Under the pieces are notes generated by a model. The model searched no databases. It had not been told where the DNA came from and worked only from the letters and a program-made list of their open reading frames with translations. From Methanomassiliicoccaceae archaeon (GTDB lineage: Archaea > Thermoplasmatota > Thermoplasmata > Methanomassiliicoccales > UBA472), in the NCBI GenBank assembly GCA_003153895.1, contig PMBU01000125.1, positions 1 through 32,223 on the forward strand: a DNA stretch of 32,223 nt. Direction: 5' to 3'. Below, one piece after another: positions 2,515-28,870 of this stretch. The position numbers and the translations under genes were made by a program. Position 1 is the stretch's first letter; every line of letters begins with the position of its first letter.

Positions 2515-2650
2515 ATAGCCCGAACCTCACCGCATCCCGATGAGAGAAAGGGGAAAAGGTTTCGCCGAAAAATCAAAAAGATCATTTTTGGTTTTGATTG
2601 AACAAAAGAAATAGTAATCTGGATAAGCCGAGGTAGCGTCCCCGGCGAAC
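2515..2650. repeat. Dispersed intergenic repeat, copy A (full length)
   Basis: The most complete copy of a repeat found five times in this window. It starts with a module reading CGAACCTCACCGCATCCCGA (2521-2540), then a purine-rich stretch and AAAAGGTTTCGCCG. An A/T hairpin follows (2571-2599, AATCAAAA pairing with TTTTGATT), then AATCTGGATAAGCCGAGG and a closing CGGCGAA (2643-2649). That closing motif is the reverse complement of TTCGCCG at 2561-2567, so the whole core could fold back on itself. It lies about 270 bases before the large LRR gene. Confidence 0.75.
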
Positions 2651-2918
2651 GGTTATTCATAATTATCGTAATCTGAATCAAATTATTTCAGCAATTTTGG
2701 GTCAGGGTTAGCCTCCGAAATTGCATGGTCGCCACATTCTTCGCTTTCTAAAGTGGCAAATTGTTCTCAAATCCGAGACGCAATGTGACGGCAGTTTTAT
2801 CCCCACAACGTGCAGTGTTACTTCATCGGGATGTAATGGTCAAGAAATTGAGAGCAATTCCGCAATTCTATTCTGATACTCCAGTTCATGGAACCATCAA
2901 TCGTATGAGGCGGTTAAA
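2651..2918. other. Intergenic leader region of the GH-LRR gene
   Basis: The gap between the DUF2117 gene and the large LRR gene is about 520 bases. Its left half is repeat copy A. In the remaining 268 bases I see no protein-like reading frame and no tRNA. The only clear signal is a GAGG ribosome site about 8 bases before the ATG at 2919. Confidence 0.5.
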
Positions 2919-5900
2919 ATGAAGGGTCATCGTACGATTCTCCTTGTCATCTGTTTGGCCTTGGTCTGCCCGATGCTCCCTGTTGGCCTAAGCGGCAACG
3001 CTCTGGCATTGGACGTCTCCAGCCATGTGATCGGCTCATCCGGGAGTAGCCTTACGCTCGATGGAACAGTTCTCCATCTGGAGGGGGTTAATGATCAGAC
3101 TGTTATACCATTACAATTCTACCCATATCCAACTTATCATTATCTCTACAGCAACCATCTGTTCTCGAGCGTGACCGGAAGATATACTGGCGACACTACA
3201 ACCATCCTCAACTCGGACAACATGACCGATTTCTGGTGGCAATACTTTTATTTGGTCAACTCGCTTGGTTTGAACTGCGTTCGTCTCGGTGGCTTCAATG
3301 CTTGGGGTCTAAACTGGCTCTATCACACCTATCATACTGACCGGGCATTGTTCGATTCCGTCATCGACCCGATGTTCATGATGGCGGAGCTGAACCATGT
3401 CTACCTAGTATTCGATTTCGGATCGGGGGGAAATGATTGCACTTTTGATACCACGGCTTATCAGTACGGAACCAACACCACACTGGCGCATCCGTTGGCG
3501 GGGAGTTGCTACCAGATTGGGTCCGCCTGCTACAACGAATGGCTGTCATTCATGGGGGCGGTAATGATCCACTATCAAAACCGGTCGTCGCTGGCGATGT
3601 GGGAGACCAACAATGAACCGGATAGCGATGGCAATTTCGTTAACTATTGGTCACATTTCTCAAGACCGAAGGAAGCGTATCGCTCCTGGGCAGAGAACCT
3701 AACCAAGGATTTGAACGCCATTGACCATCACCATCTGCTAACAATAGGTGCCGGTGTTGGCGGCTTGATGTTCTGCATGAACGCAGATACCAAGCTGGCG
3801 AACGACAATTCTGCCGACATATGCCAATCGCATGTATACGGAGAAACGCGGGTTGGCCATGGTTATGGTTGCGCCTATGGCGAAATAGAGGATGAATCGT
3901 CCTTCGTTGCAGGACGGGTTGAAGCCTCAGCGCTTGGCAAACCCGCATTCTTCGGCGAGGCCGGTTACGCCTCTGTCTCACCCCCATGGGTAATCCGCTA
4001 TTGGCCATTCCTTCATGATATTTGTGCTAAGTGCGACATCAACCTTTGTTGGTTGAACCTACTGACCTGTCCTGGCTACCCGATCCCGCAGGATCGCCTC
4101 GCAAATATTCCTGGAATTCCTGCTGAGCCGATAAACCATTCACCGACCCAAGACGGTGACTTCATCTATGAAACATTTGGAAGTTCTGACGTCGCGACCA
4201 TCATAGGATATGCTGGTGCTGCCGGAGCGTTAATCATCCCTTCCACATTGGGTCGCTATGCAACAGTGGCCATCGGGAACTACGCGTTCGCCTCCTGCAC
4301 CTCTCTGACATCCATAGCAATCTCAAATGGTGTCGTCTCAATAGGGGATAATGCGTTCGCCTCCTGCACCTCCCTTATTTCTATGGTCATCCCTAGCAGC
4401 GTCACATCCATCGGTAGCGACGCGTTCCATTCTTGCATTTCTCTGACTTCGATCAGCGTTGCAGAGTCTAACCTAAATTATGCCAGCGTTGATGGGATAC
4501 TATTCAACAAAGTCCTGACAACCTTGATCCAATGCCCTGGAGGAAAGGTGGGGGCGCTCACAATCTCAAGTGGTGTCACGTCCATTGGTAGCTACGCGTT
4601 CCAATCCTGCACCGCCCTAACCAATGTGATCATTCCGAACAGCTTAACTTCCATCGCGACGGGAGCGTTCATGGGATGCACCGCCCTGGCTTCCATCAGC
4701 ATCGGAAGCGGAGTAACTTGGATCGGAGACGGGGCATTCGCATATTGCTCTGCCCTGATTTCTGTCACCGTACCCGACAGCGTAACGCATCTCGGGAGTG
4801 ATGTCTTTTCTTCTTGCACTTCGCTGACAGCGATAAGTGTCGGTTCAAGCAATCCGAATTATGCTAGTGACAATGGCGTTCTTTATGATAAGACCCTCAC
4901 TACATTGATACAATGCCCCGGTGGGCAGGCTGGGTCGTTCACAGTTCCGAGCAGCGTCAAGTCGATCGGACGCGAGGCGTTCTCCTCCTGTTCCTCCATT
5001 ACCTACGTCTCTATACCCAACAGCGTCACCTCTATCGGGTACTATGCGTTCTCCTGCTGCGCTGCTCTTATTTCAGTCACTCTCCCCGACACCATCACTT
5101 CAATCGGCTACTATTGGTTCGCTTCCTGCCCCTCCCTCACTACCGTAATTATTCCAAGTGCCGTGACTTCCATCATGGACGGGTCATTCTCCGGTTGCAC
5201 AGCTATGGCTTCTGTGATAATTCCTGCTGGCGTGACCTCCATCGGAAACTTTGCGTTCCAATCCTGCACCTCCTTGACAACGATAAATATCGACTCAGGT
5301 AATCCCAACTATGCCAGCATCAACGGTGTGCTGTACAACCACGTCCTGACAACATTGATCCAATGCCCTGGAGGAAAGGTTGGGGCACTCGAAACCCCTA
5401 GTAGCGTCACTTCAATCGGGAACTATGCTTTCGCTTACTGCAATGCCCTATTATCGGTCACTATCGCCAGCCGCATCACGTCTATAGGGTTTGGTGCATT
5501 CTTCCATTGTGTTTCGCTGACAGCGATAAATGTTAATGCAAATAACCAGAACTATGCTAGGGTAGATGGTGTCCTTTATAACAAATCGATTATTAAGCTG
5601 ATCACATACCCAGGTGGCAGGATAGGCACATTCAGCGTCCCAAACAACGTCACGATCATCGGGGACTATTCTTTCCAATGGTGCACGGCGATAGCCTCGT
5701 TGGTTATTCCGAGCAGCGTCGACTCCATCGGGGGCTTGGCATTCCAACATTGCACATCTTTGTCGTCCATAATATTCCATGAACACACCGCGCCAACATA
5801 CATTGGTATTGGATGGATTCTAGGTGCGAACGTTGGGATAATAGGTCATGCCTACGCTTCATCCAACTTCCCCGTTCCAGGAAGGATTTTCTATGGATTG

Positions 5901-6920
5901 AAAATGGGTGAGGTCATACCCACCGAGATAATCATTGACGATGTCAGCGCCACCTTCGTTGGCACATGGCCGACCTCGACCTCGGTATCTGGCTATTATA
6001 ACATAGGCTATCATACACATGCGGCCGGGACGGGTGCGAATACAGCCACATGGGGATTCACCATCCCCACCGCCGGTTCTTGGCAGGTGTACGCTCGCTG
6101 GACGGGTTATTCCAACCGGGCCACCAATGCCCAGTACACCGTGAACAGCGTTGGGGGAGCTTCTGCTGTGATTGTGAATCAACGGATCAATAGCGGAACA
6201 TGGATGCTCCTTGGCACGTACAGCTTTAATGTGGCCGGCTATAGTGTGGTGCTCTCGGACAAAGCCAATGGGTACGTGATCGCGGACGCGATACGACTGG
6301 TTTCAACGGCAGCGCCGATTCAATATATGCTGACAGTGAACGTAGTCGGCTCGGGGTCGGTGGCCAAGAGTCCCAATTTGGCTTTGTACTCATCGGGCAC
6401 TGTGGTCACCTTGACCGCCATCCCAGCTGCTGGCTTTGTGTTCACCGGCTGGAGTGGTGCACTAACCGGCACCACCAATCCAGCTACGATCACAATGAGT
6501 GGCAACCGGGTTGTCACCGCCACTTTCAGCGCTGTAATCATCGTTGACGATGTCAGCGCCAAATTCGTAGGAACTTGGCTCACCTCAACCTCCATCGCGG
6601 GGTACAATGGCGTGGGATATCACACGCACACGGCGGGGACCGGAACAAATACAGTCACATGGGGATTCACTATCCCCACCGCCGGTTCTTGGCAGGTGTA
6701 CGCTCGCTGGACGGGTTATTCCAACCGGGCCACCAACGCCAAGTACACCGTGAACAGTGCGGGTGGAGCTTCCACAGTGATTGTCAATCAGCAGATCAAC
6801 GGCAGAACATGGGTGCTCCTTGGCACGTACAACTTCAACGCGGCCGGATATAGCGTGTTGCTTTCTGACAATGCCAACGGATATGTGATCGCGGATGCGA
6901 TACGACTAGTGTACGTCTAA
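2919..6920 (+). CDS. Secreted glycoside-hydrolase-like / BspA-LRR / golvesin-domain protein
   Basis: A 1333-residue exported protein. A signal peptide covers about residues 1-30. Residues 35-400 resemble a clan-A (GH5-like) hydrolase barrel: ETNNEP places a candidate acid/base Glu at 233, and FFGEAG a candidate nucleophile Glu at 347. Residues 411-995 are about twenty BspA-type leucine-rich repeats (TSIG..AF.SC..L..V.IP), broken four times by an insert reading NYAS..GVLYNK..TTLIQCPGG. Two golvesin-C-type beta-sandwiches (about 1003-1128 and 1206-1333) flank a bacterial-repeat domain with the GWSG motif (1136-1205). There is no C-terminal anchor, unlike the other LRR proteins here, so it is probably released or held by its golvesin domains. 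Function is inferred: binding and possibly cutting of extracellular polysaccharide. Start: GAGG 8 bases before ATG. Confidence 0.85.
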   Translation: MKGHRTILLVICLALVCPMLPVGLSGNALALDVSSHVIGSSGSSLTLDGTVLHLEGVNDQTVIPLQFYPYPTYHYLYSNHLFSSVTGRYTGDTTTILNSDNMTDFWWQYFYLVNSLGLNCVRLGGFNAWGLNWLYHTYHTDRALFDSVIDPMFMMAELNHVYLVFDFGSGGNDCTFDTTAYQYGTNTTLAHPLAGSCYQIGSACYNEWLSFMGAVMIHYQNRSSLAMWETNNEPDSDGNFVNYWSHFSRPKEAYRSWAENLTKDLNAIDHHHLLTIGAGVGGLMFCMNADTKLANDNSADICQSHVYGETRVGHGYGCAYGEIEDESSFVAGRVEASALGKPAFFGEAGYASVSPPWVIRYWPFLHDICAKCDINLCWLNLLTCPGYPIPQDRLANIPGIPAEPINHSPTQDGDFIYETFGSSDVATIIGYAGAAGALIIPSTLGRYATVAIGNYAFASCTSLTSIAISNGVVSIGDNAFASCTSLISMVIPSSVTSIGSDAFHSCISLTSISVAESNLNYASVDGILFNKVLTTLIQCPGGKVGALTISSGVTSIGSYAFQSCTALTNVIIPNSLTSIATGAFMGCTALASISIGSGVTWIGDGAFAYCSALISVTVPDSVTHLGSDVFSSCTSLTAISVGSSNPNYASDNGVLYDKTLTTLIQCPGGQAGSFTVPSSVKSIGREAFSSCSSITYVSIPNSVTSIGYYAFSCCAALISVTLPDTITSIGYYWFASCPSLTTVIIPSAVTSIMDGSFSGCTAMASVIIPAGVTSIGNFAFQSCTSLTTINIDSGNPNYASINGVLYNHVLTTLIQCPGGKVGALETPSSVTSIGNYAFAYCNALLSVTIASRITSIGFGAFFHCVSLTAINVNANNQNYARVDGVLYNKSIIKLITYPGGRIGTFSVPNNVTIIGDYSFQWCTAIASLVIPSSVDSIGGLAFQHCTSLSSIIFHEHTAPTYIGIGWILGANVGIIGHAYASSNFPVPGRIFYGLKMGEVIPTEIIIDDVSATFVGTWPTSTSVSGYYNIGYHTHAAGTGANTATWGFTIPTAGSWQVYARWTGYSNRATNAQYTVNSVGGASAVIVNQRINSGTWMLLGTYSFNVAGYSVVLSDKANGYVIADAIRLVSTAAPIQYMLTVNVVGSGSVAKSPNLALYSSGTVVTLTAIPAAGFVFTGWSGALTGTTNPATITMSGNRVVTATFSAVIIVDDVSAKFVGTWLTSTSIAGYNGVGYHTHTAGTGTNTVTWGFTIPTAGSWQVYARWTGYSNRATNAKYTVNSAGGASTVIVNQQINGRTWVLLGTYNFNAAGYSVLLSDNANGYVIADAIRLVYV
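5928..6910 (+). repeat. Duplicated golvesin-domain coding repeat
   Basis: The two golvesin-like domains of the preceding gene (5928-6303 and 6535-6910) are close copies at the DNA level. They include a 65-base identical run at 6063-6127 and 6672-6736. Identity through third codon positions points to a recent duplication or gene conversion rather than protein-level constraint alone. Confidence 0.8.
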
Positions 6921-7040
6921 AGACCGGTGACTAGGTGAATCGAAACCTCTTCCTTTTCACTTTTCCTAAGAACAGCGAAGAGAGCTGATCGCGATCATCG
7001 CCAATAACTAGTTTTTCAATAAGACTGATAATTCATTGAA

Positions 7041-7076
7041 GGGGGAGCCATTCCAGACCGATGTCTGGATTGGCCC
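7041..7076. terminator. Long hairpin between convergent genes
   Basis: A near-perfect inverted repeat with core TCCAGAC-CGAT-GTCTGGA and outer arms GGGG..GCC and GGCCCC. It lies between the stop of the LRR gene (6920) and the convergent Mth938 gene (ending 7130). The position suits transcript-end processing for both strands, but no T-run follows on either side, so a terminator role is only a guess. Confidence 0.4.
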
Positions 7077-7129
7077 CGGCATTTGCGGCAGATCGTCCTG
7101 GCGACCTTCGAAGACATAGGCCGAGGACG

Positions 7130-8086
7130 CTAACAGGTCACATGCAGCAGGGCTATTGCCTTCTCCTCGCACACGGCCAGTTTCTTCAGGGCCTCGGGAG
7201 TCTTTCCGACGAAATAAAGGTAGCCGTCCAGGAACCTCTCGGCCCTGGGCGTCAAGGGCATTGAGCCGCTATCTCCAGTCCCGATGATGATCATCACTGG
7301 TTCTTCCCTTTCCAGTTCCTTCAGTTCACTCCGGGTCAAGGGGGTGTGACCGTATTTCTTCTTCTTCTTTTTGGAAAGCCCCTTCTCCCTTTTGGTTACA
7401 GAGCCGTCCGCATGTACGATGACATCGAAGTCATACCTTTTACCATTCAGCTCAACCCAGCCAACACTGGAATTGAAAGAATCAGCTTTTTCGGTCGGTT
7501 CCGCCTTGGCCTGAGCTTCCTTCGTATCCGGGATCGCCCCGATGGGATGCTCGACCTTCTCCTCGATGGCTCCAGCCTTGGCTCTGCCTCTTATCACTGA
7601 CTTGGGCTTTTCTTTTTCTTTGGGTTTCTCCTTTGGCATGGAAGTACCGGCACCCATGGAGTCACCGAACCTCACTGCCGGCGTCTTCTCGTTCGTCTGG
7701 GCCTTGGGCATCTCGACCTTCTCGGTCGGCTCCATCTTCGCCTCCTTCACAGTCGGGACCGCCGCCATGGAATGCCTGGCATTATCCTCGATCGGTTGAC
7801 CCTTGGGTCCGCCTTCAATCAATGCTCTGGGCTCTTCCCTGTCCTTGTCCTCTTTTATAGGGGCGACAGGACTGATGGAATCACCGAACCTCTCCGCAGC
7901 AGCCTTCTGCGAGGCATGGGATGGCCCATGGACCGTTGGCTTGACCACCTTCTTCTTTTCGCTAGGGACCACCTTTGCAGGTTGAGCCCCCTTGAAATGA
8001 CTTACATTCCTTAATGATGACCCATCCTTGGGCTCCCGTTTCTTACCAGGTATCCTTTTGCTTTTTGTTCCTTTGACCGTGACCAT
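7130..8086 (-). CDS. Mth938-like domain protein with long repetitive charged N-terminus
   Basis: A 318-residue protein. The last ~110 residues (from about 208) are an Mth938/DUF498-type domain: ELNGKRYDFDVIVHADGSV, the HTPLTRSEL segment, the IIIGTGDSG loop and a C-terminal helix. This small fold has no settled biochemical role. The first ~205 residues are Lys/Glu/Pro-rich and probably disordered. They contain a ~70-residue unit present twice (from about residue 66 and residue 138), each with RFGDS, a charged linker, a basic VIRG/LIEG-like segment, H.I/MAA/GAIP.TKEA and EPTEK. Typical family members are only the ~120-residue domain, so the N-terminal extension is unusual. Start ATG 8086 has GGGGAC about 8 bases upstream. 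No membrane helix is seen. The gene runs opposite to both neighbours and stands alone. Confidence 0.75.
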   Translation of the reverse strand: MVTVKGTKSKRIPGKKREPKDGSSLRNVSHFKGAQPAKVVPSEKKKVVKPTVHGPSHASQKAAAERFGDSISPVAPIKEDKDREEPRALIEGGPKGQPIEDNARHSMAAVPTVKEAKMEPTEKVEMPKAQTNEKTPAVRFGDSMGAGTSMPKEKPKEKEKPKSVIRGRAKAGAIEEKVEHPIGAIPDTKEAQAKAEPTEKADSFNSSVGWVELNGKRYDFDVIVHADGSVTKREKGLSKKKKKKYGHTPLTRSELKELEREEPVMIIIGTGDSGSMPLTPRAERFLDGYLYFVGKTPEALKKLAVCEEKAIALLHVTC

Positions 8087-8280
8087 TTGACCGTCCCCTT
8101 CGTTCCAATCTAGGTAGGTCCTCTCTATAATCCTTTTCTATGCTCCGAGTAGAAATGCTGGCCAAATGATCCTTTTAGAACCACTTCCAAGCCATGGACC
8201 TAATGTGGATAATTGACGGATCTTCATCGGTATCGAATTCTGATCATTTTCGATAAGATCGTAGTGGCGGCCTGAGCGAT

Positions 8281-8286
8281 TATATT
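8281..8286 (+). promoter_or_regulatory. TATA-like box for the phosphate transporter gene
   Basis: TATATT lies 25 bases before the ATG at 8311, with no clear ribosome site. This spacing predicts a leaderless transcript, common in archaea. Confidence 0.4.
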
Positions 8287-8310
8287 CCTGGGATTCGTTG
8301 GGTTAGCTAG

Positions 8311-9348
8311 ATGGACCCAATCATCCTCCTCGCCATCGCCGTCATCGTAGTCCTGCTCGCGCTGTTCTTCGCGTTCACCAACGGCGCTAATGACTCGGCC
8401 TCCCTGGTCGCCACTATCATCGCTTGCCATGCGGCCACGCCGCGCGGGGCGGTCATCTTCGCATCGATAGTCGGTTTCTTCGGAGCAATAATGGGGGGGA
8501 GCGCCATCGCCATCACCATTCGGAGCATCGTCGGACCGTATGGCACGGACGTGCTGGTGCTCATCCTCTTCGCCACGGTGATCTCAGCTGTCGCCTGGAA
8601 CCTTATGAGCTCGACCCTGGGGCTGCCATCCTCATCCACTGACGGCATGATCGGAGGGCTCATTGGGGCGGGGATCGGGGCAGGAGGCCTGGGAAGCATT
8701 TACTGGGGTTTTACGGAGCTCTTCGGTCCGTCAATGGCGCTGGTAGGGGTGGCGAAGGTGCTCGTCTTCCTCATAGTGTCCGTTGTCCTGGGTTTCTTCG
8801 GCGGCTACCTAGCCATGAAATCGTCCAGATGGTTGCTCAGGAACGCCAACCGAAGGATCAACCAGCCAATAAGGAGGGTGCAATGGCTCACGGCCGGGCT
8901 TCTGGCCTTCGCCCACGGCGCCAATGACACCCAGAAGCAGATGGCCATCATCGCTCTGGTGATCCTGGGGGCGGGATACTCGTCCAGCGCGGAAGTGCCT
9001 GACTGGGCCAGGATAGCCTGCGCCCTATGCATCGCCCTAGGCACCCTGGGAGGAGGATGGAGGATCCAGAGGACCCTGGGCAGGGGTATCTATCCCCTCA
9101 AGCCGATACACAGCCTGAACTCTCAGATCCCCTCTGCCGCATCCATCCTTATCTCCACCGTCGCGGGCGCGCCGGTGTCCACCTCTCAGGTGGTGTCCTC
9201 TAGCGTCATCGGGGTCGGAGCGGCGGAGAATGCCAAGATGGTCCGCTGGCGGGTGGGAGGACAGATCCTGCTCTCCTGGTTCGTGACCATGCCCGCTTGC
9301 GCGATTATCTCGGGCATCATTTTCATACTGATGAAAGCCATCACCTAG
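8311..9348 (+). CDS. PiT-family inorganic phosphate transporter
   Basis: A 345-residue integral membrane protein of the PiT family, which moves inorganic phosphate (some archaeal and bacterial members move sulfate) with a coupling cation. Both inverted PiT signature halves are present: FTNGANDSA at residues 22-30 and AFAHGANDTQK near 200-210. Hydrophobic helices run throughout, with a basic cytoplasmic loop (SRWLLRNANRRINQPIRR) before the second signature. Length is at the short, archaeal end of the family. The start has no ribosome site but a TATA-like box 25 bases away. The DUF47 gene follows within 35 bases, the usual arrangement for this transporter class, so the two are very likely co-transcribed. 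No symbol is given because the substrate is not proven. Confidence 0.9.
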   Translation: MDPIILLAIAVIVVLLALFFAFTNGANDSASLVATIIACHAATPRGAVIFASIVGFFGAIMGGSAIAITIRSIVGPYGTDVLVLILFATVISAVAWNLMSSTLGLPSSSTDGMIGGLIGAGIGAGGLGSIYWGFTELFGPSMALVGVAKVLVFLIVSVVLGFFGGYLAMKSSRWLLRNANRRINQPIRRVQWLTAGLLAFAHGANDTQKQMAIIALVILGAGYSSSAEVPDWARIACALCIALGTLGGGWRIQRTLGRGIYPLKPIHSLNSQIPSAASILISTVAGAPVSTSQVVSSSVIGVGAAENAKMVRWRVGGQILLSWFVTMPACAIISGIIFILMKAIT

Positions 9349-10050: not shown

Positions 10051-10220
10051 AAAAAGAAAAAAGTTTCGCCGTCAGAAGGGTTCGGTGCAAATCGAATTTA
10101 ATTGAATCCAAAAATTATTAATCTGGATGACCGTGGCTTAACTTCCCGACGTTTCGCAACTAGCCAGATGTCGATAAATGATAGGGACGCTGAGGCATTT
10201 TCAAGTATCTGGCTAATATG
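10051..10220. repeat. Dispersed intergenic repeat, copy B
   Basis: Same family as copy A but of a second subtype shared with copy E: TTTCGCCGTC, then GGTGCAAATCGAATTTAATTG and AATCTGGATGACCGTGGCTT. It extends further right into CTAGCCAGATGTC, a part shared with copy C. In this copy, TAGCCAGAT is mirrored about 40 bases on by ATCTGGCTA, an inverted pair. It lies between the DUF47 gene and the 3' end of an LRR gene. Confidence 0.7.
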
Positions 10221-12201: not shown

Positions 12202-13425
12202 ATGCGAATAGCCTTCGTGACCTTCGAGTACCCTCCAAACATCAATGGAGGTGCTGGTGTTTACGCCGACAACCTTGTTAAGAGCCTGGCGAAGCTTGGC
12301 AACGAAGTCACGGTCTACGTCCCGAGCATCGGAACAGAATCGTCGGTTGAGGAGTTGAATGGAGTGGTGGTGAAGCGCGTCCGCCAGCGATTTAAGGGCG
12401 TTCCAGGCTGGATAAACTATTGTCTTAATTTAGCTAAGGGTCTAGAGCGATTGCATGCCAAAGATGGTATCGATATCGTGCATCTTAACGGCCTGGGCTT
12501 CTTCGCTTTTCGGGATCGGGTCAATGGCCCTCCCTATATTTCCACTGCCCATCATCTGTCCGGGGAGACGGCGAGGAAGGGCGAGCTGCGAATTATCGAT
12601 CGATTGTTGGACATGCAAGGGGAAAATGGCTTTATTGTGCCATTTATGGAGCGTCAGGGGATCAGAATGGTCGATCGCTATTTGGCCGTCAGCGAGCAAT
12701 CCAAGGAGGGACTGAAATGCCTCTATGGTAGACCAGAGAACAGAATCGACGTTGTCTGGCATGGGGTGGATGGGAGCCGAGCTCCGATTGGCCCCCAGGA
12801 CAGAGAGACCATCAGGACCAGGATGCAGCTCCCTGAAGGTCAGCTTTTGCTATTCGTAGGCAGGGTGGACGATCCCAGAAAGAATCTTCTAGGCTTGATT
12901 CGGGCGATGGCATCTTTGCCGAGAGAGTTGGACGCGAAGTTGTTGGTCGTAGGGTCGGGGTCCAATGCCAAGGCGAAGTCGCTAGCGAGGGAGATGAATC
13001 TCGACGAAAGAATTTTTTTCATGGGCCGAGTCTCACCGGAGGACCTCTGGTCGACCTATCTAGTGGCAGATGGACTCGTTTGCGTCTCATGGCAGGAGGG
13101 CTTCGGGCTCACCATTATTGAGGCGCTTTGCGCTGGCTGTCCGGTGATCTCCACCGAGGTTGGCGTGGCACCGGATTTACAAGGACGCCTAGAGAAGGTC
13201 GTTCCGGTTAATGACGAGGAAGCCTTGGCTGAGGCGATATCAGTCCTATTCAAAAGGAAGGGTAGGCCGAAGGTAGCTGAGGTGGTTATCCCCTACGAGC
13301 TCAGTTGGGAACGTTGCGCCATGGAAACCGTGGCCGGGTACGAAAAAGCAATCGACCAGAAGCATCAAGCCAATTCAGCTAAATTTGGAGAGGGAAGCGC
13401 TATTAGTTTTAATGAGAACAACTAA
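12202..13425 (+). CDS. Family 4 glycosyltransferase
   Basis: A 407-residue GT-B fold glycosyltransferase of family GT4, which transfers a sugar from a nucleotide donor to a lipid, sugar or protein acceptor at the cytoplasmic face. The N-terminal domain starts MRIAFVTFEYPPNINGGAGVY, with the glycine-rich acceptor-domain loop. The C-terminal donor domain has LLFVGRVDDPRKNL near residue 215 and the E-x7-E motif (Glu299 to Glu307 in EGFGLTIIE), which binds the nucleotide sugar. No transmembrane helix is visible. It is flanked by genes for surface proteins rich in N-x-S/T sites, so a role in making surface glycans is plausible but not shown; donor and acceptor are unknown. Start ATG 12202 has no clear ribosome site. 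Confidence 0.88.
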   Translation: MRIAFVTFEYPPNINGGAGVYADNLVKSLAKLGNEVTVYVPSIGTESSVEELNGVVVKRVRQRFKGVPGWINYCLNLAKGLERLHAKDGIDIVHLNGLGFFAFRDRVNGPPYISTAHHLSGETARKGELRIIDRLLDMQGENGFIVPFMERQGIRMVDRYLAVSEQSKEGLKCLYGRPENRIDVVWHGVDGSRAPIGPQDRETIRTRMQLPEGQLLLFVGRVDDPRKNLLGLIRAMASLPRELDAKLLVVGSGSNAKAKSLAREMNLDERIFFMGRVSPEDLWSTYLVADGLVCVSWQEGFGLTIIEALCAGCPVISTEVGVAPDLQGRLEKVVPVNDEEALAEAISVLFKRKGRPKVAEVVIPYELSWERCAMETVAGYEKAIDQKHQANSAKFGEGSAISFNENN

Positions 13426-13465
13426 ATAATAATATAGATGAGCCCAGGTAGATAACCAGTGGGGA

Positions 13466-13616: not shown

Positions 13617-16600
13617 TTAGACCCTGCCGCGTCTTATCAGGAACAACGCGATCAACACTATTGCCAGCACAACGATGATCAATACGATGAGCCACATGTA
13701 GTCTGTTGCGGCTGCATTGGGGGTTATCGCTATGACGCCAAGCGTATTGTTATGTCCAACACCATATGTCTGGTCGTTAAGCACATAATCCTGGAATCCG
13801 CTCTTGGATATGTTCAGGTTGTAAATGCCACCATTCACGAGGAGGGTGAAGTTTCCGTTTGCGTCAGTCACGCCCTCGACGACGGTGGTTCCGTGTGTCA
13901 ATTTCACCGTGGCGTTCATGATCGGGTTACCCATGTCATCATGTACCGTTCCGGTGACCCGCGTTACAACCGTGAAGCTCCAGCTTGCGTTGGAACCAGT
14001 CAGCTGATTGCCCGCCCGGTCCTTACCGGATACCACGATATTATAGATCGTGGCATAGGTCAGGGCCGCATGGGTCAGAGTGACTTCCGTTCCCGCAACA
14101 TTCCAGGTCTTGGTCCCATTGATGCCGGTGAATGTCACTGACGACTGGTTCATGGCCTCGCTGAAGGTTACCTTCACCAATACATCCGGCAACACTATCG
14201 CTCCCGATGCGGGGAGATGGCTAACGACCGTCGGAGGCACTATCTCTGCAAGGAATGACACGTTCCATGTCGCAGAGTTGCCCACCGAATCCACGGCCTT
14301 GACGTGGATGACGTGAGAGCCAGCGGATAAATCGGCGAACAGTTGCGAGGTGTTCAGGCCAACATCCAGCAACGGATTGTCATCCATAGCGACCCAGATC
14401 TTGGCGACCGGGGACAGGCTATCCATGACGACCCAAGTGGCGTTGATCGCCCTGCTCACGGTCTGACCTTCCTGCGGATAGATGATGACGATCTCCGGTC
14501 CGGTCAGATCGACCACGATCGAGACGGTCTTCTCCTGTGCGTTTCCGATAGTGTCCCAAGCCTTCACGTGGAGCGTGTGTGCTCCCTCGGTCAGGTTCAC
14601 GAACAGGTATCCATCGCCGGTGGTCATGTTGACGAACGCACCAGTGTCGTTCCAGACGTGCATATAGGCAACGCTTGTGCCGTTGTCCACTGCGCTCCAG
14701 TTCATTTGGATATTGGTGACATTGGTATGCATGCCGTTGGCCGGTTGGGTTATGGTCACGAACGGAGGGGCATCAACCATGAACATGACGGAGGTCATGT
14801 TGACGTTGGTCGCGTTGTCGACCGCTCTTACCATGAACGTGTGCCTGCCATCGGACAGACCTGACAATACTTTCGAGTGGTTGTAGCCGACGTTCTCCCA
14901 CGTGCTGTTGTCGATCTTAACCTCGAAGAATGCCAGTCCGGAGAGAGCATCGCTCCCGTTCCAAACTATGGTCACTTGGCTGGTATTGAACTTCGTGCCG
15001 TTCGTCGGAGAGACGATATCGACCATCGGTAAGGTCAGGTCCACGGTGAAGGTCACGTTGGCGGTTCCGAAGTTGCCAGCCCTATCGGACACACGCACTT
15101 CCACAAAATGTTGACCCTCGATCATAGAGGGCATAGTATAGCTTGTGGAGGTGTTGCTCAAAGCCGTCCAAGGGCCGCTATCATTGCGGATCAATTGGGA
15201 CTCGATCCCTGATGCCTCAACACCCGCATCTGTGGCGTTCCACTCGATTAGAACATCGGCAGTGTTCACGAATCCACCTGCGGTCGGAACATCGATCACG
15301 ACCGTTGGGTCTATCGTGTCCACGAAGAACTGGACCTCAACGCTGGAGTTTAAGCTGGCATTGTCGAAGACCATCATGTTGAAGGTATGCTGCCCCTGGG
15401 ATAGGACATCCGTGGTGTAGCTCGTGTTGTAACCGATGTTGATGAACGGGCCAGAGTCGATGCTTACATTGGTGTTGAGCACCCTCGATCCCGACTCGAT
15501 GATGTTCCAGCTGAAGGTCACCGTCGTAGTGTTGATGTAACTGCCACTGAACGGGGTCATATTGGTGATCAGCGGGCTGGTCGTGTCCACAGTTATGTTG
15601 ACCGTTGCCACGCGACTGTTGCCGGCGGGATCGATGGCTTTGACCGCGATAGTGTGATGGCCATCAGCCAAAGCCAGGGTCGCGTTCTCGCTGAGTCCCT
15701 CGGACCGCCAGTCATCCGAGTCAACCCTGAGTTGATACTCACTGATACCATTGGCATCGGTGCCATGCCAGGCCGTCAGCACATTTCCGGTGGTATTCAG
15801 GTAGCCATTCATCGGTTCACGTATTTCTATTGTTGGTGCGGTCAGATCTACCGTGAACTGCACCGATGAGATGGAGAAGCCATTGGCGTTGGTAACGTTC
15901 ACAGATACGGTGTTGCTGCCCTCCACGACGCCCTGCGAGGCGTTGAACAGATGGCTGGTCGAAAGGTCCTTGTCAATCCATGCTCCGCCATTCAGTTTGA
16001 CTTCGTAACCGGTGATCGCTGCACCGTTGGGCCAGCCCTGCCATTCGGCGTTGAGATTAGTGGTGTTGAGCATCGCTCCATCGACCGGGGCAGTTATGTT
16101 CACCACCGGCAGGTTGATGGGCGCAACGAACACAAACTTGCTCATAACACCGGAATCGCCGTACTTATTGGTGGCCACGACCTTGTACTCGTAGTTGATG
16201 CCGGGGGAGATTGTTGTATCGTTGAGCTGGGTGATTCCAGCGGCTGTTTCGAACACTGCGGAGTCGGAGCTGTTAGTTCTAGTGATAACGTACTTGAGCA
16301 ACGGACCTCCGGCACTGTAGTTGGGGGCGTTCCAAGTGATCTTGGCCCAGATGTAGCCGATGCTCCCCTGCAAGTTGTTGACCATGCCCACAGGGTACGC
16401 CAGCGGCAGGTTGTCGCTTAGCGAGCCTCCGTCAATGGCATAGGGTACATCGATGATGGAGTCGCCATTCGCATCCGGAGTGGTCCAGTCGGTCCAGTAG
16501 TTGCCAAGGCTGGCAGTGTTCCATGCGTCCGTGGTGCGGTTGTCGAAGGCCTGCATATGATCGTCGTCAGCTGTCGATGTGGCTCCATGATCCCCAGACA

Positions 16601-17914: not shown

Positions 17915-17968
17915 GGTGATGCCAGGCGAGCGCTTGAGAACGCATTTCTTGGCAATGGGAATAGATGA

Positions 17969-18110
17969 TTGAAGCAAATAATTAATAATCTGGATAAGGC
18001 GAGGATCGTTTCTCCGGCGAACTAGATATTCAAAGGGGTTTTTATAACCTAGCCAGATGTCAATGAATGATATGGAGGAGGATGTATTTGGGAGTATATG
18101 GCCGAAGCAT
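17969..18110. repeat. Dispersed intergenic repeat, copy C (left end missing)
   Basis: It begins within the family core (GATTGAAGCAAATAATTAAT), continues through AATCTGGATAAGGCGAGG and the closing CCGGCGAAC, and extends into CTAGCCAGATGTC plus about 45 bases that match copy B imperfectly. The left TTCGCCG arm is absent. It lies between the NosD-like gene and the 3' end of the next LRR gene. Confidence 0.65.
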
Positions 18111-20179: not shown

Positions 20180-20265
20180 TCTCATCCGCCCTCTTTCTCC
20201 TCGAAGAGTACGAATTTTATCCCATGCTCTATTTTTCTGCTATTAGGTTTCTGCTATTAGGGATT

Positions 20266-20406
20266 CATAGCGCTTACCTCACAGCATCCTGTTGAAAAAT
20301 AAGAAGGAAAGGGTTTCGTCGGAAAGAATCAAAGAGGGCATTTTTAGTTTTGATTGAAACAAATAGATAATTATCTAGATAAGCCGTTGGTTGTTTCCTC
20401 GGCGAT
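20266..20406. repeat. Dispersed intergenic repeat, copy D
   Basis: A full-length but diverged copy with the same order as copy A. CATAGCGCTTACCTCACAGC is the diverged left module. It is followed by GGGTTTCGTCGG, AATCAAAG..TTTTGATTG (the internal hairpin arms), TTATCTAGATAAGCCGTTGG and CCTCGGCGA. It lies 126 bases before the nitroreductase ATG. Confidence 0.7.
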
Positions 20407-20532
20407 AGCAAAGCCAATTTCATTTCAAACCGAGGACAGGCAAGAAGAGGTCCGCATCCAATTCCAAAATGGCATAACCATTAAGTTAGAGGGTCGCTTC
20501 TAGCAAGGATTGTTGGTTAGAGGTTTGACAAA

Positions 20533-22230: not shown

Positions 22231-22254
22231 ATCTGCACATCCCCTACCGTGGTT

Positions 22255-22974: not shown

Positions 22975-23006
22975 AATGATCGGATATTACAGAGTGGCCT
23001 AGCTTC

Positions 23007-23014: not shown

Positions 23015-23068
23015 AGCGATGAGTGGGATTCGACTTTGTTATTAAGATTAATGAAACAGCGCCGCGGG

Positions 23069-23077
23069 TTTAAATAT
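23069..23077 (+). promoter_or_regulatory. TATA-like box for the anchored exoprotein gene
   Basis: TTTAAATAT lies about 38 bases before the ATG at 23112. AAGGGAT sits just before that ATG as a possible ribosome site. Confidence 0.4.
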
Positions 23078-23111
23078 CGGCTTTTCAGTCGATTTTCGAA
23101 GGGATATCGTT

Positions 23112-24509
23112 ATGAGAAACAAGTTCTTCGTAGCATCGGCTTCTGTGCTGACTGTACTGACGATGCTGGTCACCGCGTTCGTCATACCAGCCGCTGGCGC
23201 TTCATCTGCGCCTGTCAACCAGAACGATAAGATAACGACCGAGGTCGGCCCAACCACCGAACTGGGTGGTGGAGATCATTTCTACATCAAATTCGGTTCC
23301 GACGCCACCTTCGGCATCTTGTGGGGTACAAAAGATAATCCGAACGACGTCTATTTCGTATCCTATATCTCAAGGTATCTGGGCTGCATAAATGTTGATG
23401 AGCCGAATGGGACGGTGCTCGCTCAAAAACCGTTGAAGATCTACACCCTTTATGCTGTCAAGCTTGACCGTTTGATCGAGTATAACAACACCAGCAACGG
23501 ATTGCTCAACTACAACCCTTCAGGACTAATCGGGGAGCTATTGACCGGACAGATTTACAAAGGGGTGAATCTAAACACCGCTTGGACCGCCAGCAATTGG
23601 CAGAATGGCACCAACACTAACGGCAATCTAACCTGGAGTTTCACCCTGACGGCAACGAATCTGAGTTACAACGTGCCTCTTAGGTATAGAGGGGATGCCG
23701 ATGGCAACGGCATACTCGACAGCATAGCCATGACGTTCCATCTTACCGCGAGCACGAACTTCCTGGACAACATCACTGTTCCGCAATGGAACGTCACAAT
23801 GAACCAGGGTCCACTTGGAAACGAACGGTTCAGGGACCTCCAGAGAGGCAATGACCTCACAGTCTCAGGCAACGTCACCAACTACCATGTCAAGTGGAAC
23901 AAGGTTATCATGGGCTGGGACTTCAATTCAAGGGACACGAACCCGAACCTTCTAGCGGAGTATACCATCATCGTTGGAAACTATATCCCTCCGGTTGTTA
24001 ACGGGCTTATGGCACTGGCCGAATGGCAGAAGGTGGTCGGCGCCACCGGTGACAATGGAACTATGACCGCAGAGGGCCAAAACTTGAATGGAAGCCCTTC
24101 CTTGAGCAATGCTTTCTTGCTCCACACTCCAAGGTTGACCTTCGAAGGTGACCGCTCGCGAATCGGGACCTTCGAGTGGGTGAAGAACGTGACCGTGGAT
24201 GGGCAGACGAAGAACGCCACCTCCCAGGTCACTGCTATAATGCCCTTTAATTTAAGGTTCGGAGCCAAGGACTTCTACGGCTTCACCGCGATCGTCGCCA
24301 TATCATATCCTAGGGGGCAGAGCATAGTGCAGGATCCGGACATCTCGTCTCAGGCAATGACCGATCTGGCCATTTCCACCAGTGGATCAGGCAATAGTGG
24401 AAGCATGCCCAGCTCTTTCCCAATTGGCTTGGTGCTGATCATTGTCATGGTGGCGGCTATCGCTATGGCAGCGATGATCATTCTCAGTAGGAAGAGGGGT
24501 GTCAAGTAG
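23112..24509 (+). CDS. Membrane-anchored exoprotein of unrecognised family
   Basis: A 465-residue protein I do not recognise. A signal peptide (about residues 1-30, ending in AAGA) is followed by a ~395-residue beta-rich extracellular part with more than ten N-x-S/T sites. A Ser/Gly linker (STSGSGNSGSMPSS) precedes a hydrophobic helix and the tail SRKRGVK. An EF-hand-like calcium loop DADGNGILD lies at residues 195-203. No LRR, FN3 or PKD pattern is visible. The anchor design matches the LRR and NosD proteins in this window, so it is probably another surface protein. It stands alone, divergent from the nitroreductase pair. A pyrimidine-rich tract follows the stop. Confidence 0.8.
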   Translation: MRNKFFVASASVLTVLTMLVTAFVIPAAGASSAPVNQNDKITTEVGPTTELGGGDHFYIKFGSDATFGILWGTKDNPNDVYFVSYISRYLGCINVDEPNGTVLAQKPLKIYTLYAVKLDRLIEYNNTSNGLLNYNPSGLIGELLTGQIYKGVNLNTAWTASNWQNGTNTNGNLTWSFTLTATNLSYNVPLRYRGDADGNGILDSIAMTFHLTASTNFLDNITVPQWNVTMNQGPLGNERFRDLQRGNDLTVSGNVTNYHVKWNKVIMGWDFNSRDTNPNLLAEYTIIVGNYIPPVVNGLMALAEWQKVVGATGDNGTMTAEGQNLNGSPSLSNAFLLHTPRLTFEGDRSRIGTFEWVKNVTVDGQTKNATSQVTAIMPFNLRFGAKDFYGFTAIVAISYPRGQSIVQDPDISSQAMTDLAISTSGSGNSGSMPSSFPIGLVLIIVMVAAIAMAAMIILSRKRGVK

Positions 24510-24523
24510 TCTCCAAAAGCAAA

Positions 24524-24549
24524 CTTCTTCCTTTTTCATCCTTTCTTTC
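24524..24549 (+). terminator. Pyrimidine-rich stop signal
   Basis: A run of C and T (CTTCTTCCTTTTTCATCC and more) starts about 15 bases after the stop codon of the exoprotein gene. It is a typical archaeal stop context. Confidence 0.45.
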
Positions 24550-24717
24550 GTTGAAATATAGGCATGAGCAAGATTTCCCAGGATTGACTCCACTAATTAT
24601 GCCATTCTCTATATTCTTCTTGCGGCGTTTCAAATCATGCTGCCATCGACCGGTTTCATGATATATTCAAAAGGAATTTGAATGACAGGGATTATTGCAA
24701 CTACGAAGGAATGAACA

Positions 24718-25488
24718 ATGGCCGACTTCGATGGGGAAAAGTATAAGGCTGCATCCAAGCACCAAAAGGAATGGGGCGAAAGGCTGATTGGTGACCTTGC
24801 TCTAAAAGGAGATGAGAGGGTAATTGACCTAGGATGCGGGGACGGTTACCTTACAAATAAGATTAGGAATTTGGTCCCAAAGGGGAGCGTGCTTGGGATC
24901 GATTCCTCTGCATCCATGATAGAAACAGCTAAGAAATTAGAAGCACCCAACCTGAAATTCCAGAAACTTGACATCTATGATCTTGACTTCGACGAAGAGT
25001 TCGATGTCGTCTTTTCCAATGCGGCGCTCCATTGGGTCAAGGACCATAATCGGTTACTAGGAAACGTCCGCAAGGCAGTCCGAGCAGGAGGTCTTGTTCG
25101 CTTCAACTTCGCCGGGGATGGCAACTGCTCTAATTTCTTTGAGGTCGTCCAGGAGGTTATGGCAATACCGAGTTACCGGGAGTATTTCGATGGAATGGTT
25201 TGGCCCTGGTTCATGCCCTCAGTAAGCGACTATGAAGTATTGATCGAGCCTTATAAGTTCTGTGAATGGAGCGTATGGATGGAGAACGCTGACCGCCATT
25301 TCACCGAAGATGAGTTGGTCCTATGGATTGACCAACCCTCTATCGTTCCCTTCCTTGCGGGACTGAAGCAAGGCGATAAGCAGGCTTTCAGAGAAGAGGT
25401 TATTAATCGGATGCTTCAGAGGACCATAACCCCTGATGGCAGATTCTTCGAAACCTTCCGGCGTCTCAATCTAAAGGCAAAGAAGTAG
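24718..25488 (+). CDS. Class I SAM-dependent methyltransferase
   Basis: A 256-residue Rossmann-fold methyltransferase. Motif I is VIDLGCGDGYL (residues 35-45), which binds S-adenosylmethionine. The acidic residue for the ribose is in LGIDSSASMIE, and motif IV is FDVVFSNAALHWVKDH, with the LHWV form seen in trans-aconitate methyltransferase-like and small-molecule enzymes. The C-terminal lid (WMENADRHFTEDELVLWI) is also typical of that group. The substrate is unknown. AAGGA lies 7 bases before the ATG, and a TATA-like GATATATTC is about 55 bases upstream. It is probably a single-gene unit. Confidence 0.85.
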   Translation: MADFDGEKYKAASKHQKEWGERLIGDLALKGDERVIDLGCGDGYLTNKIRNLVPKGSVLGIDSSASMIETAKKLEAPNLKFQKLDIYDLDFDEEFDVVFSNAALHWVKDHNRLLGNVRKAVRAGGLVRFNFAGDGNCSNFFEVVQEVMAIPSYREYFDGMVWPWFMPSVSDYEVLIEPYKFCEWSVWMENADRHFTEDELVLWIDQPSIVPFLAGLKQGDKQAFREEVINRMLQRTITPDGRFFETFRRLNLKAKK

Positions 25489-25548
25489 CAACCCCATTAG
25501 TCGCCAACTCAATATCTTCTATCTTTTTGTCTCGATCGTCAAAAGCAA

Positions 25549-25814
25549 TCACAGGAAGTATTCCCCTTCGATGTGTTTAATCTGTCCATCAATTCGAATT
25601 TCATAAAATCGCAGGTATTGCTTCTTGACTGGAGTCACCTTTTTGGAGAAAAGGCAGACTCTGGTCATTTTCTTGATCTCTGAGCTCTCGAATGCTTCAA
25701 CGTGGCAAAACAAATCCAATCTTAAACAGCTGTCACAATTCTGGTACCCAACGCCACAGCGGCCGTTTTGCTACTAATGCCAACTATAATATGCCTGGAA
25801 TGTTCGGAAACCAT
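25549..25814 (-). pseudogene. Frameshifted small Cys-rich (zinc- or Fe-S-type) gene
   Basis: Two frames together make one plausible protein of about 88 residues. From ATG 25814 the first 17 residues read MVSEHSRHIIVGISSKT. At an AAAA run near 25769-25772 the sense moves by one base into a frame reading GRCGVGYQNCDSCLRLDLFC, then VEAFESSEIKKMTRVCLF, and ends EGEYFL before TGA at 25549. Restoring one A to the run joins them. The second segment has four cysteines spaced C-x6-C-x2-C-x6-C, a likely metal site. That frame has two stop codons just before it and no usable start before the cysteines, so it cannot be a gene by itself. A TATA-like box sits at the right distance. I do not recognise the family. 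Confidence 0.55.
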
Positions 25815-25847
25815 TCTCAACTTCGATAACACTAATATTCGGTGATG

Positions 25848-25858
25848 TTTATAAATAG
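25848..25858 (-). promoter_or_regulatory. TATA-like box for the small Cys-rich gene
   Basis: CTATTTATAAA on the minus strand lies about 38 bases before the ATG at 25814. The sequence is nearly symmetrical, so it could also serve the plus strand. Confidence 0.4.
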
Positions 25859-25994
25859 TAGCGACTCCCAGTTATTACAGGCCCCCATTGATTGAGCAGA
25901 CCCATGAGGCCATAAGGCCCTAAGATCCTATAATGGTCGTCGCAAGCATGCTCCTTCAAGGGGGATCTCCGATGGGGTTTGATTCCTCAAAGCT

Positions 25995-26014
25995 CGAACC
26001 TCGCCGCATCCCGA
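25995..26014. repeat. Partial dispersed repeat (left module only), before the kinase gene
   Basis: CGAACCTCGCCGCATCCCGA differs by one base from the left module of copy A. The rest of the repeat is missing here. The same module recurs in the same orientation just after the kinase gene. Confidence 0.6.
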
Positions 26015-26078
26015 TTGATTATATGGTCATCGCATTCCTGTCTATCTTCGGGGAGGGCAAAAGATATTAGGATAAAAT

Positions 26079-26087
26079 CTATAAATC
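26079..26087 (+). promoter_or_regulatory. TATA-like box for the histidine kinase gene
   Basis: TCTATAAAT lies 20 bases before GTG 26103. No ribosome site is seen, so a leaderless transcript is likely. Confidence 0.45.
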
Positions 26088-26102
26088 TTTGCAGCTGACC
26101 TT

Positions 26103-28457
26103 GTGGGGAGTACTTTGGAACCGTCAAAAGAAGTAAACAAGAGTCTCATTAGCATTCTTGAGAGAATCACCGATGGATTTCAATTTCTTGATCGCAATTG
26201 GCGATTTACTTACATCAACAATCGCGGCGCCGAGATATTTGGCATGAAGGTCGAGGACCTTCTTGGCGATGTGATCTGGAATCTGTTTCCCTATGCAAAA
26301 GGGAACAATTTCTTTATTGAATATCACAAAGCCATGGAAACGATGGAGCCGAGACATTTCGATGAATACTACCCTGAACCGCTCAACAAGTGGCTGGAGA
26401 TGCATTGCTATCCTTCTGAAGAAGGATTGGCAGTTCACTTCAGGGATGTCACTGAACGTAAGAAATCAGAAGAAGCGCTGGTGGAAAGAGAAAGACTAAG
26501 TTCCGCTTTGATCCAGATTAATGTTTACGTCAATTCCACTCTTGATCACAAAGAGATCATGCAGCGGGTCATCGAGGAAGGAGCTAAGGCAATTGATGCT
26601 GAATCATCGCTCATCAATATGCGAGAGGGCGACGGGTGGGCCGCCCGGTTCGTGTATCGCTTCCCACCTGAGATCCTCGGCCAACCGAAGACGAACGAGG
26701 AATCGCCCACATCCATGCTGGTGATGAAAGAAAGAAGGGTCGTGGCCATCAACGATGCTTTTGAAGATTCCAGAGTCGACAAGCAGGCAATGAAGGCGTT
26801 CAATGCGCGCTCAGTTCTTATTGCCCCGATCATCCGCCGAGACGAGGTCATCGGCATCATCGCTTTCTATCATCATTCCAAAAAGGTCAATTTCAGTGAT
26901 GCTCAGATAGATTTTGCTCAAAAACTGGTCGGTTCGATGTCGCTGGCAATCGAGAATGCCAGGTTGTTCGAAACATTGAGCCAAAACGAAGCCAGATACC
27001 GTGGACTCTTCGAGAACATATCGGAGGCGGTCACACTACGCCAGCTCATCTATGATGAGCGAGGTAAGATCATCGACATGGAATTGATCGACACCAACCC
27101 CGCAAACCTCAAGGCCTTAGGCGTTAGCTCCATCAATGAGTTGAAGGGCAAGAGATATAGCGAAATCTATAAGCCAGATTTAACGGCGCATCTGCTTGAC
27201 ATAGTGAACAGGATGAAAGACACCGGAAAACCTGTCACCGAGGAGATACGCTTCTACTCCAATAATCGAGATTACCTGGCCACTTACACTCCGCTCGATA
27301 AGGACCAGATCATCACCATGAGCGTGGACATCACGGAGCGTAAGATAGCAGAACGAGCCATCGAAAGGGAGAGGGCTCGTCTGCAACTGATTCTCGATTC
27401 TTTGCCAGTCGCTGTTGCCGTGGCCGATGAGAAAGGCAGCCTGCAGATCGTCAACAAAAGAACACATGAAATATGGGCTGGATCAACAAAAAATATCAAT
27501 CAGATTAATGATTATATTGGTTACCTGCCTGGCACGGAAGTCAAACTTAAAACGGAGGACTGGCCGATAACTCGAGCTCTTAGACAGGGAACGACAATAC
27601 TAAACGAGGAGATCGATGTCAAACGACTGGATGGCACAAGGGGAACTGTGGTAGCATCTGCGATCCCATTGAAAGATGAGGATGGTAAGATCAATGGGGC
27701 GCTCGTAGCTTATACGGACATCACCGAAAGGAAAGAGTTGGAGCAAAATCTAGCAAGGTCCAACGTCGACCTCCAGCAGTTCGCTTATATCGCTTCTCAT
27801 GACCTCCAGGAACCGCTCAGGATGGTTAGCAATTACTTGTCGCTATTGGATAGGCGATATCATGACAAACTGGACGCCAAGGCTCAGGAGTATATAGGTT
27901 ATGCTTTAGATGGCGGAGAAAGAATGCGTCAACTGATCAATGACCTTTTGGAATATTCCAGAGTCGATGCGGTGAGTAAGGAGTTCGCTCCGGTTGATAT
28001 GAAAGCCGTGGTTTCGAAATCGCTTGCCATTCTTGAAGAGTCAGTTAAGGAGAATGATGCGGAGATCTTGGTCGAGCCCTTGCCGATAATCGTCGCTGAC
28101 GAATCTCAGATGATCCAATTGATGCAAAATCTAATTGGCAACGCTATCAAATTCCACGGCCCAGAGCGACCGAAGATTCTTATCTCGGCGTCAGAAGGAG
28201 TCAGAGAAGTCACATTTGCGGTCAAGGACAATGGCATTGGCATGAATATGCAGCACGCAGACAAGATATTCCAGATGTTCCAGAGGCTTCATGGCAGGGA
28301 TGAGTATCCAGGGACTGGTGTCGGTCTAGCAATTGCCAAGAAGATTGTCGACCATCATGGTGGAGGAATTTGGGCAGAGTCAGAGGAAGGCAAGGGGGCG
28401 ACGTTCTTCTTCACTATTCCGATTCAAGCGGTGTTGAAAGATGTAACACATGTCTGA
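26103..28457 (+). CDS. Soluble PAS-GAF-PAS-PAS sensor histidine kinase
   Basis: A 784-residue kinase without transmembrane helices, so it should sense an internal signal. Domains in order: PAS (about 14-125, ending RDVTERK), GAF (127-292), PAS (296-411, ending VDITERK), PAS (426-540, ending TDITERK), HisKA dimerisation helix (553-620) with the phospho-acceptor His566 in ASHDLQEPLRMV, and an ATPase domain (670-778) with Asn680 in the N box (LIGNAIKFH), Asp709 in DNGIGM and the GTGVGLAI lid. The DLQEP form is common in archaeal kinases of this type. No heme-, flavin- or bilin-binding cysteine pattern stands out. No response regulator is nearby, so it is an orphan in this window. The start is GTG 26103, with a TATA-like box 20 bases upstream. 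The gene is bracketed by direct copies of a repeat module. Confidence 0.92.
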   Translation: MGSTLEPSKEVNKSLISILERITDGFQFLDRNWRFTYINNRGAEIFGMKVEDLLGDVIWNLFPYAKGNNFFIEYHKAMETMEPRHFDEYYPEPLNKWLEMHCYPSEEGLAVHFRDVTERKKSEEALVERERLSSALIQINVYVNSTLDHKEIMQRVIEEGAKAIDAESSLINMREGDGWAARFVYRFPPEILGQPKTNEESPTSMLVMKERRVVAINDAFEDSRVDKQAMKAFNARSVLIAPIIRRDEVIGIIAFYHHSKKVNFSDAQIDFAQKLVGSMSLAIENARLFETLSQNEARYRGLFENISEAVTLRQLIYDERGKIIDMELIDTNPANLKALGVSSINELKGKRYSEIYKPDLTAHLLDIVNRMKDTGKPVTEEIRFYSNNRDYLATYTPLDKDQIITMSVDITERKIAERAIERERARLQLILDSLPVAVAVADEKGSLQIVNKRTHEIWAGSTKNINQINDYIGYLPGTEVKLKTEDWPITRALRQGTTILNEEIDVKRLDGTRGTVVASAIPLKDEDGKINGALVAYTDITERKELEQNLARSNVDLQQFAYIASHDLQEPLRMVSNYLSLLDRRYHDKLDAKAQEYIGYALDGGERMRQLINDLLEYSRVDAVSKEFAPVDMKAVVSKSLAILEESVKENDAEILVEPLPIIVADESQMIQLMQNLIGNAIKFHGPERPKILISASEGVREVTFAVKDNGIGMNMQHADKIFQMFQRLHGRDEYPGTGVGLAIAKKIVDHHGGGIWAESEEGKGATFFFTIPIQAVLKDVTHV

Positions 28458-28734
28458 TCTTGGGTTCCATAATAAAAAAATGAAGATTCCATTTATTTCT
28501 CCGATAGCCCGAACCTCACCGCATCCCGACACAGACCTCTACGGAAAGTGTGGATTAAAGAAACAACGACTAAGCCCAAAGACGACCTAATAAAATAAGA
28601 CAATGTCTATTAAATTAACTGACCCATATGGCCAAACAGATATCATTATATACAGCTACAATTTAAAATAATAACTATATCCCCCGGATGGGAGTGCGAG
28701 GGGTGCAATTTGAACCTCGATATTCACATTATTA
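28458..28734. other. A/T-rich gap after the kinase gene
   Basis: About 540 bases separate the kinase from the MFS gene. They hold the partial repeat at 28504-28529 and copy E, with A/T-rich sequence between. No protein-like frame, tRNA or strong hairpin was seen. GTGCAATTTGAACCTCG near 28701-28717 may be a decayed second left module. Confidence 0.45.
28504..28529. repeat. Partial dispersed repeat (left module only), after the kinase gene
   Basis: A 26-base stretch identical to 2515-2540 of copy A (it contains CGAACCTCACCGCATCCCGA). The rest of the element is separated from it by about 215 bases; copy E then begins. Confidence 0.65.
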
Positions 28735-28870
28735 AAACAAATAAAGAAAAGGGAAAAGGTTTCGCCGTCCGAGGGCTCGGTGCAAATCGAATTTAATTGA
28801 AACCTAAAATTTTTAATCTGGATGAGCGTGGCTTTGTTTCCCCGTCGGGAGCAATCCCAACTTCACGTGT
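28735..28870. repeat. Dispersed intergenic repeat, copy E
   Basis: Same subtype as copy B: GGGAAAAGGTTTCGCCGTC, GGTGCAAATCGAATTTAATTG and AATCTGGATGAGCGTGGCTT. It lies between the kinase and MFS genes, near the 3' end of the latter. Confidence 0.7.

Follow-up and report, generated by a model that had tools for sequence, protein, structure and literature searches.

The window, by which we mean the whole stretch of 32,223 nucleotides that was analysed, is contig C47 of a Methanomassiliicoccales MAG (G000; 1.83 Mb, 157 contigs, 79% complete). It carries three LRR_5 genes, a gene for a PAS/GAF histidine kinase and a set of related intergenic repeats, for which an earlier note had proposed a dispersed family of about 140 bases with five copies. 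Four of these copies are clearly related, namely A (2510-2652), B (10062-10156), D (20262-20409) and E (28758-28852), while copy C (17943-18024) is a weaker relative without the TTTCGCCG part. The repeat is genuine and its occurrence is far beyond chance, but it is composite, consisting of two separable pieces: a junction site of ~20-28 nt with the consensus TnTCnnAGCCCGAACCTCACCGCATCCC, which is the "left module" of the earlier note, and a core of ~95 nt. The features along the window, with the scores of the core model R1, are as follows.

2510..2540, plus strand: junction site of copy A, with the 20-mer GCCCGAACCTCACCGCATCC intact at 2518-2537
2558..2652, plus strand: core of subtype A/D, copy A, reading TTTCGCCG ... 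AATCTGGATAAGCCGAGG ... CGGCGAA; 93.9 bits
10062..10156, plus strand: core of subtype B/E, copy B; upstream site not recognisable
13401..13457, plus strand: partial core, middle and right part only; 27.8 bits
17943..18024, plus strand: degenerate core C, right half conserved and left half absent; 37.9 bits
20262..20292, plus strand: degenerate junction site of copy D, with 4 mismatches in the 20-mer
20312..20409, plus strand: core of subtype A/D, copy D; 91 bits
25985..26014, plus strand: core-less junction site with 2 mismatches, left border of the histidine-kinase module
26103..28457, plus strand: PAS/GAF histidine kinase gene, alone between two same-orientation sites and so forming a module
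28499..28529, plus strand: junction site with intact 20-mer and no core directly downstream, right border of the kinase module
28556..28716, plus strand: "X-type" downstream flank, common to G000:C68 and to contigs C1, C2, C29 and C45 of G010
28695..28716, minus strand: displaced 22-nt piece resembling a tRNA-Leu 3' end (GGTTCAAATTGCACCCCTCGCA), aligned with the intact tRNA-Leu genes of G002 and G010
28758..28852, plus strand: core of subtype B/E, copy E; 84.9 bits

The three parts that all five copies had been said to share are not present in every one of them: TTTCGCCG is exact in A, B and E alone, CGGCGAA is exact in no copies other than A and C, and copy D carries TTTCGTCG/TCGGCGA in place of the exact parts. 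The proposed subtypes A/D and B/E are genuine and recur across the genome, and the two sites said to hold the left module alone are indeed there, on either side of the kinase gene. A relative of this gene also adjoins a site in G002:C80. In addition, a 54-nt repeat (CTAGCCAGATGTC...) is found at 10160-10213 and 18049-18102, directly downstream of cores B and C, the two occurrences being 78% identical.

The core model R1 was built from 11 copies and recovers these together with weaker ones; the loci searched hold 11 full-scoring copies, one of them from a relative. Site and core occur apart from each other, since a clear site lies upstream of only 5 of 15 cores, and many sites are followed by sequence other than the core. 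Where both are present, the distance between them is ~45 nt in A, D, C123 and G040a, and 83 nt in G040b. The ends of the core pair over at least 7 bp in 6 of the 11 copies. The full-length terminal stem that had been proposed for copy A does form there, as well as in D, C69, C66, C32b and G007, but not in B, E, C55 and C32a. When the subtype-E core was compared with a plasmid collection, no match was obtained. The core of G040:C19 ends in a tRNA 3' end, which as a single case is only suggestive of a core derived from a tRNA, and the core might possibly be a non-autonomous insertion.

As had been noted, copies A-D, four of the five, have LRR_5 or NosD genes as neighbours, so that a link with surface-protein genes does exist in the window. 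Genome-wide the link is weak. The G000 cores outside the window adjoin the genes of RibD, an MFS protein, 5'-nucleotidase, alcohol dehydrogenase, KsgA and other ordinary genes, and surface-protein genes are present on only one (C66) of the five other core-bearing contigs. Therefore, the association is largely local. Besides the three in the window, LRR_5 genes of G000 are found on C68, C66, C83 and C107, and LRR proteins are among the recurrent module genes in four genomes.

Further copies are present in the genome, and they are most numerous for the junction site: with no more than three mismatches in the 20-mer, 31 sites were identified in G000, compared with none for the reversed-pattern control. 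Sites were also found in G002, G010, G007, G009 and G040, the last of which belongs to another family, and 5 of 400 class genomes hold the site with at most one mismatch. Exact matches in the GTDB representatives number four, two in Methanomassiliicoccales and two in bacteria, the latter looking like chance matches. In the searches made, the site is thus restricted to one lineage of Methanomassiliicoccales. Two exact matches in IMG/VR are not above chance and their flanks show no site-like extension, and a viral origin of the site was rejected. No published report of such a repeat system was found in the literature searched, which was open literature with few subscription papers.

The conservation peak is sharp, covering ~20 nt, or up to 28 nt if the weaker edges are included, and little is conserved beyond it. 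Among 82 sites, 77 are intergenic. Their orientation is uniform in every contig with at least two sites (18 contigs, 51 sites), for which the probability would be 2^-33 if the orientations were independent; over such short contigs, however, the uniformity could instead follow the direction of replication. The genes beside the sites lie on both strands (25 plus, 37 minus), and a reading of the site as a promoter or operator element was consequently ruled out. The base at position +13 of the site is characteristic of the genome, being G in 16 of 19 sites of G010 and C in 27 of 29 sites of G000, and it keeps to the genome even where the downstream flank is common to several genomes. Because this base is fixed for each genome and not for each downstream module, the point of crossover or insertion is likely to lie close to the site's right edge.

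The two sides of the sites were compared over 350 nt each for 105 sites in six genomes, counting non-adjacent pairs. Homologous flanks were found for 67 pairs of sites, and in all but one of them the homology is confined to one side (49 downstream only versus 17 upstream only), often extending to within 0-6 nt of the 20-mer. The ends of homology blocks lie no more than 40 nt from a site in 53 cases, three times the 15.9 expected. This almost exclusively one-sided homology marks the sites as mosaic junctions, although it could come partly from fast divergence of the other flank. The genomes with sites that were examined all seem to be MAGs or drafts, in which misjoins at repeats are possible, but unlikely at 20-28 nt.

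The modules bounded by sites are 0.3-3 kb long and mostly hold one or two genes, and many of them have sites at both ends. In contigs C138, C68, C123 and C62, the sites form clusters at a spacing of 300-1200 bp, with one or two genes per interval. For example, site and block are adjacent in G002:C66, while in G000:C102 a module of ~600 bp lies between them, which is 80% identical to the module starting at the C138:7120 site. This C102 module is located just 3' of a degenerate site and has no second site on its right. Similarly, C138 and G002:C80 have in common the gene that precedes the first site, and G000 has ~600 bp more behind it. A ketopantoate-reductase-like gene (G002:C80 15136-16074; G009:C4 ~105599-106538) is 86% identical at the DNA level across two genera, which looks like recent horizontal transfer, and it is inverted relative to the adjacent site. 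Neither this inversion nor the missing right-hand site of the C102 module is predicted by strict cassette exchange. A clean empty site was not obtained through G009 and its relatives, the latter being without the flanks; what this search yielded was the inverted gene that G009 has in common with G002. Another dispersed non-coding repeat (AAAGGGTTTGTGGGACAGGTAAAGAAGCG...) is present at G000:C152 8035-8080, behind a site, and at the end of C138 (7720-7782), behind a module gene.

A minority of the sites are close to tRNA genes. Ten tRNA genes were found in the site-bearing loci, six of them within 250 nt of a site, and all six point their 3' end toward it. Tyrosine integrases typically leave displaced tRNA 3' ends behind as their footprint. 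The flank common to G002:C20 and to C1, C29 and C45 of G010 includes a tRNA-Leu gene, of which the version in the window retains only the 22-nt 3' piece at 28695-28716; in G000:C68, the tRNA is interrupted by an assembly gap (NN). A fluoride riboswitch (RF01734) was also recognised at G002:C15 ~1960-2021 (L180:461-522, minus strand).

The sole PF00589 protein found in G000, a tyrosine recombinase, is encoded on the array contig C138, and a relative with 41% identity, 485 aa long and apparently complete, is encoded on G002:C80, which also bears sites. Both genes lie on the strand opposite to the sites. Their matches are only generic (PF00589 and a PHROG integrase): neither protein matches NCBIfam up to an E-value of 0.01, solved structures gave no sequence match, and viral contigs gave no relatives. 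No recombinase family recurs among the genes near sites, and G010, a 93%-complete MAG with ~21 sites, has no match to PF00589 or to the recombinase profile. Therefore, the tyrosine recombinase is a candidate enzyme only. Each of the two recombinases adjoins a protein of ~455-499 aa, helicase/ATPase-like, with a Walker-A-like motif read by eye, and that of C138 also adjoins a serine resolvase gene. Given such neighbours, the recombinases may belong to integrated plasmids and stand beside the arrays by chance. The small serine resolvase gene beside a tyrosine recombinase is found at G000:C138 1205-1873 (minus strand) and G002:C53 10245-10676 (plus strand), a pair conserved in two species; as an enzyme for the sites, this serine-resolvase pair is uninformative, as each of the ten genomes tested matches PF00239, whether it has sites or not. 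A broken copy of the same recombinase family was also noticed at G000:C54 ~13983-14463, near a tRNA-like 3' end (L170:4853), and it adjoins sequence that in G002:C24 starts 14 nt behind a site.

The presence of one repeat at the joins of unrelated genes suggests the landing site of a gene-shuffling system. We consider it slightly favoured over all other readings together that the left module is a site for the site-specific integration or recombination of small, mostly integrase-less gene modules in one Methanomassiliicoccales lineage, acted on most likely by a tyrosine recombinase in trans. Modules of one or two genes would be inserted at a resident site or immediately 3' to it, bringing in surface LRR proteins, the histidine kinase, a ~180-aa orphan family and enzymes, and such insertions would leave runs of same-orientation sites, often beginning behind the 3' end of a tRNA gene. 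The enzyme would resemble the two recombinases whose genes adjoin the arrays of G000:C138 and G002:C80, and the ~95-nt core would be one recurrent non-coding module, often directly behind the site. The breakpoints would then result from site-specific recombination, and the modules may still be moving at present. The suggestion of the earlier note that the repeat is a recombination site is therefore well supported for the left module, but not for the 140-base element as a whole.

An alternative that we hold to be unlikely is that a family of non-autonomous transposable elements has the site as its conserved (5') end. Such elements could, for instance, be target-specific or of the one-ended rolling-circle type (IS91/ISCR-like); the modules would be captured DNA and the core a MITE-like member. 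It would agree with the more frequent sharing of downstream flanks, with a +13 variant that does not move with the downstream flank, with the C102 module that lacks a second site, and with the cores that have no site. However, the gene families that cluster around sites include no recurrent transposase, upstream flanks, too, can be homologous right up to the site, many modules are bounded by sites at both ends, and the tRNA 3' ends indicate a target of the tyrosine-integrase type. Less probable still is a motif for a DNA-binding protein (nucleoid, partition or replication-polarity), with the mosaic look coming from ordinary intergenic gene turnover. The site is short, sharply bounded, intergenic and directional, as such a motif would be, and most G000 contigs show a slightly negative GC skew on the strand of the site, but the clusters at 300-1200 bp, the homology breakpoints at the motif itself, its occurrence in so few genomes of the class and its lack of a fixed relation to gene strand argue against it.

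The remaining two readings concern the whole element and the array. That the element is a structured RNA, as the earlier note had allowed, or a riboswitch, and is transcribed ahead of surface-protein genes, is very improbable: the terminal stem pairs in most A/D-type cores and one compensatory change is seen in C32a, but the stem pairs poorly in several B/E copies, covariation and pairing of the proposed core stems equal those of shuffled controls, no Rfam family matches the repeats, and copies B and E are situated between convergent genes. A canonical integron, in which the repeats would be attC sites and the C138/C80 recombinase IntI, is scarcely credible despite the array layout, the uniform orientation, the recombinase on the opposite strand and the modules of one or two genes, and despite the occurrence of integrons in archaeal MAGs (PMC9668308). 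The sites have no hairpin potential (mean DNA-fold z of ~0 over 56-57 sites) and no complementary partner within 200 nt, and canonical attC was rejected by these two tests; moreover, no RYYYAAC/GTTRRRY boxes are seen by eye in the consensus, and the recombinase is without an NCBIfam match.

The integration-site reading can be compared with systems already described. Integrons, which archaeal MAGs also contain (PMC9668308), have attC gene-cassette arrays that are likewise made of small, mostly unknown genes split by short same-orientation sites; they, too, have a tyrosine recombinase encoded on the opposite strand and variation at the first position. In contrast, the site here is an unfolded sequence of ~20-28 nt and not a folded attC, the module genes lie on either strand, the sites are scattered over many contigs, and the recombinase gives no match to the IntI model. 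The tRNA-targeted integrative elements and tandem accretion islands, with their tyrosine integrases and displaced tRNA 3' fragments (compare Islander, PMC4383910), resemble the present case in the clustering of sites behind tRNA 3' ends, the displaced tRNA-Leu 3' piece and the same-orientation arrays. However, the repeated site is not the tRNA end itself, and the units are of 0.3-3 kb and mostly without an integrase. The dispersed intergenic copies of ~140 nt, with partly self-complementary core ends, are reminiscent of archaeal MITEs and other non-autonomous repeats, except that only some core copies have the full terminal stem and the site is not a terminal inverted repeat. Our best reading is therefore an integron-like or accretion-like layout of small modules, which by membership is neither an integron nor a classic tRNA island.

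A bolder proposal, which we put forward tentatively and regard as unlikely, is an archaeal form of cassette capture, in which a short unfolded site with a tRNA-proximal anchor would work independently of attC hairpins and reshuffle surface-protein and orphan genes across the genera of Methanomassiliicoccales. If the integration-site reading holds, the system would offer a natural comparison for how integrons might work without folded attC sites. It would also give uncultured methanogens a means, so far unreported, of gaining and rearranging genes, those of large surface proteins among them, and the site would serve as a searchable 20-nt tag for finding such modules.
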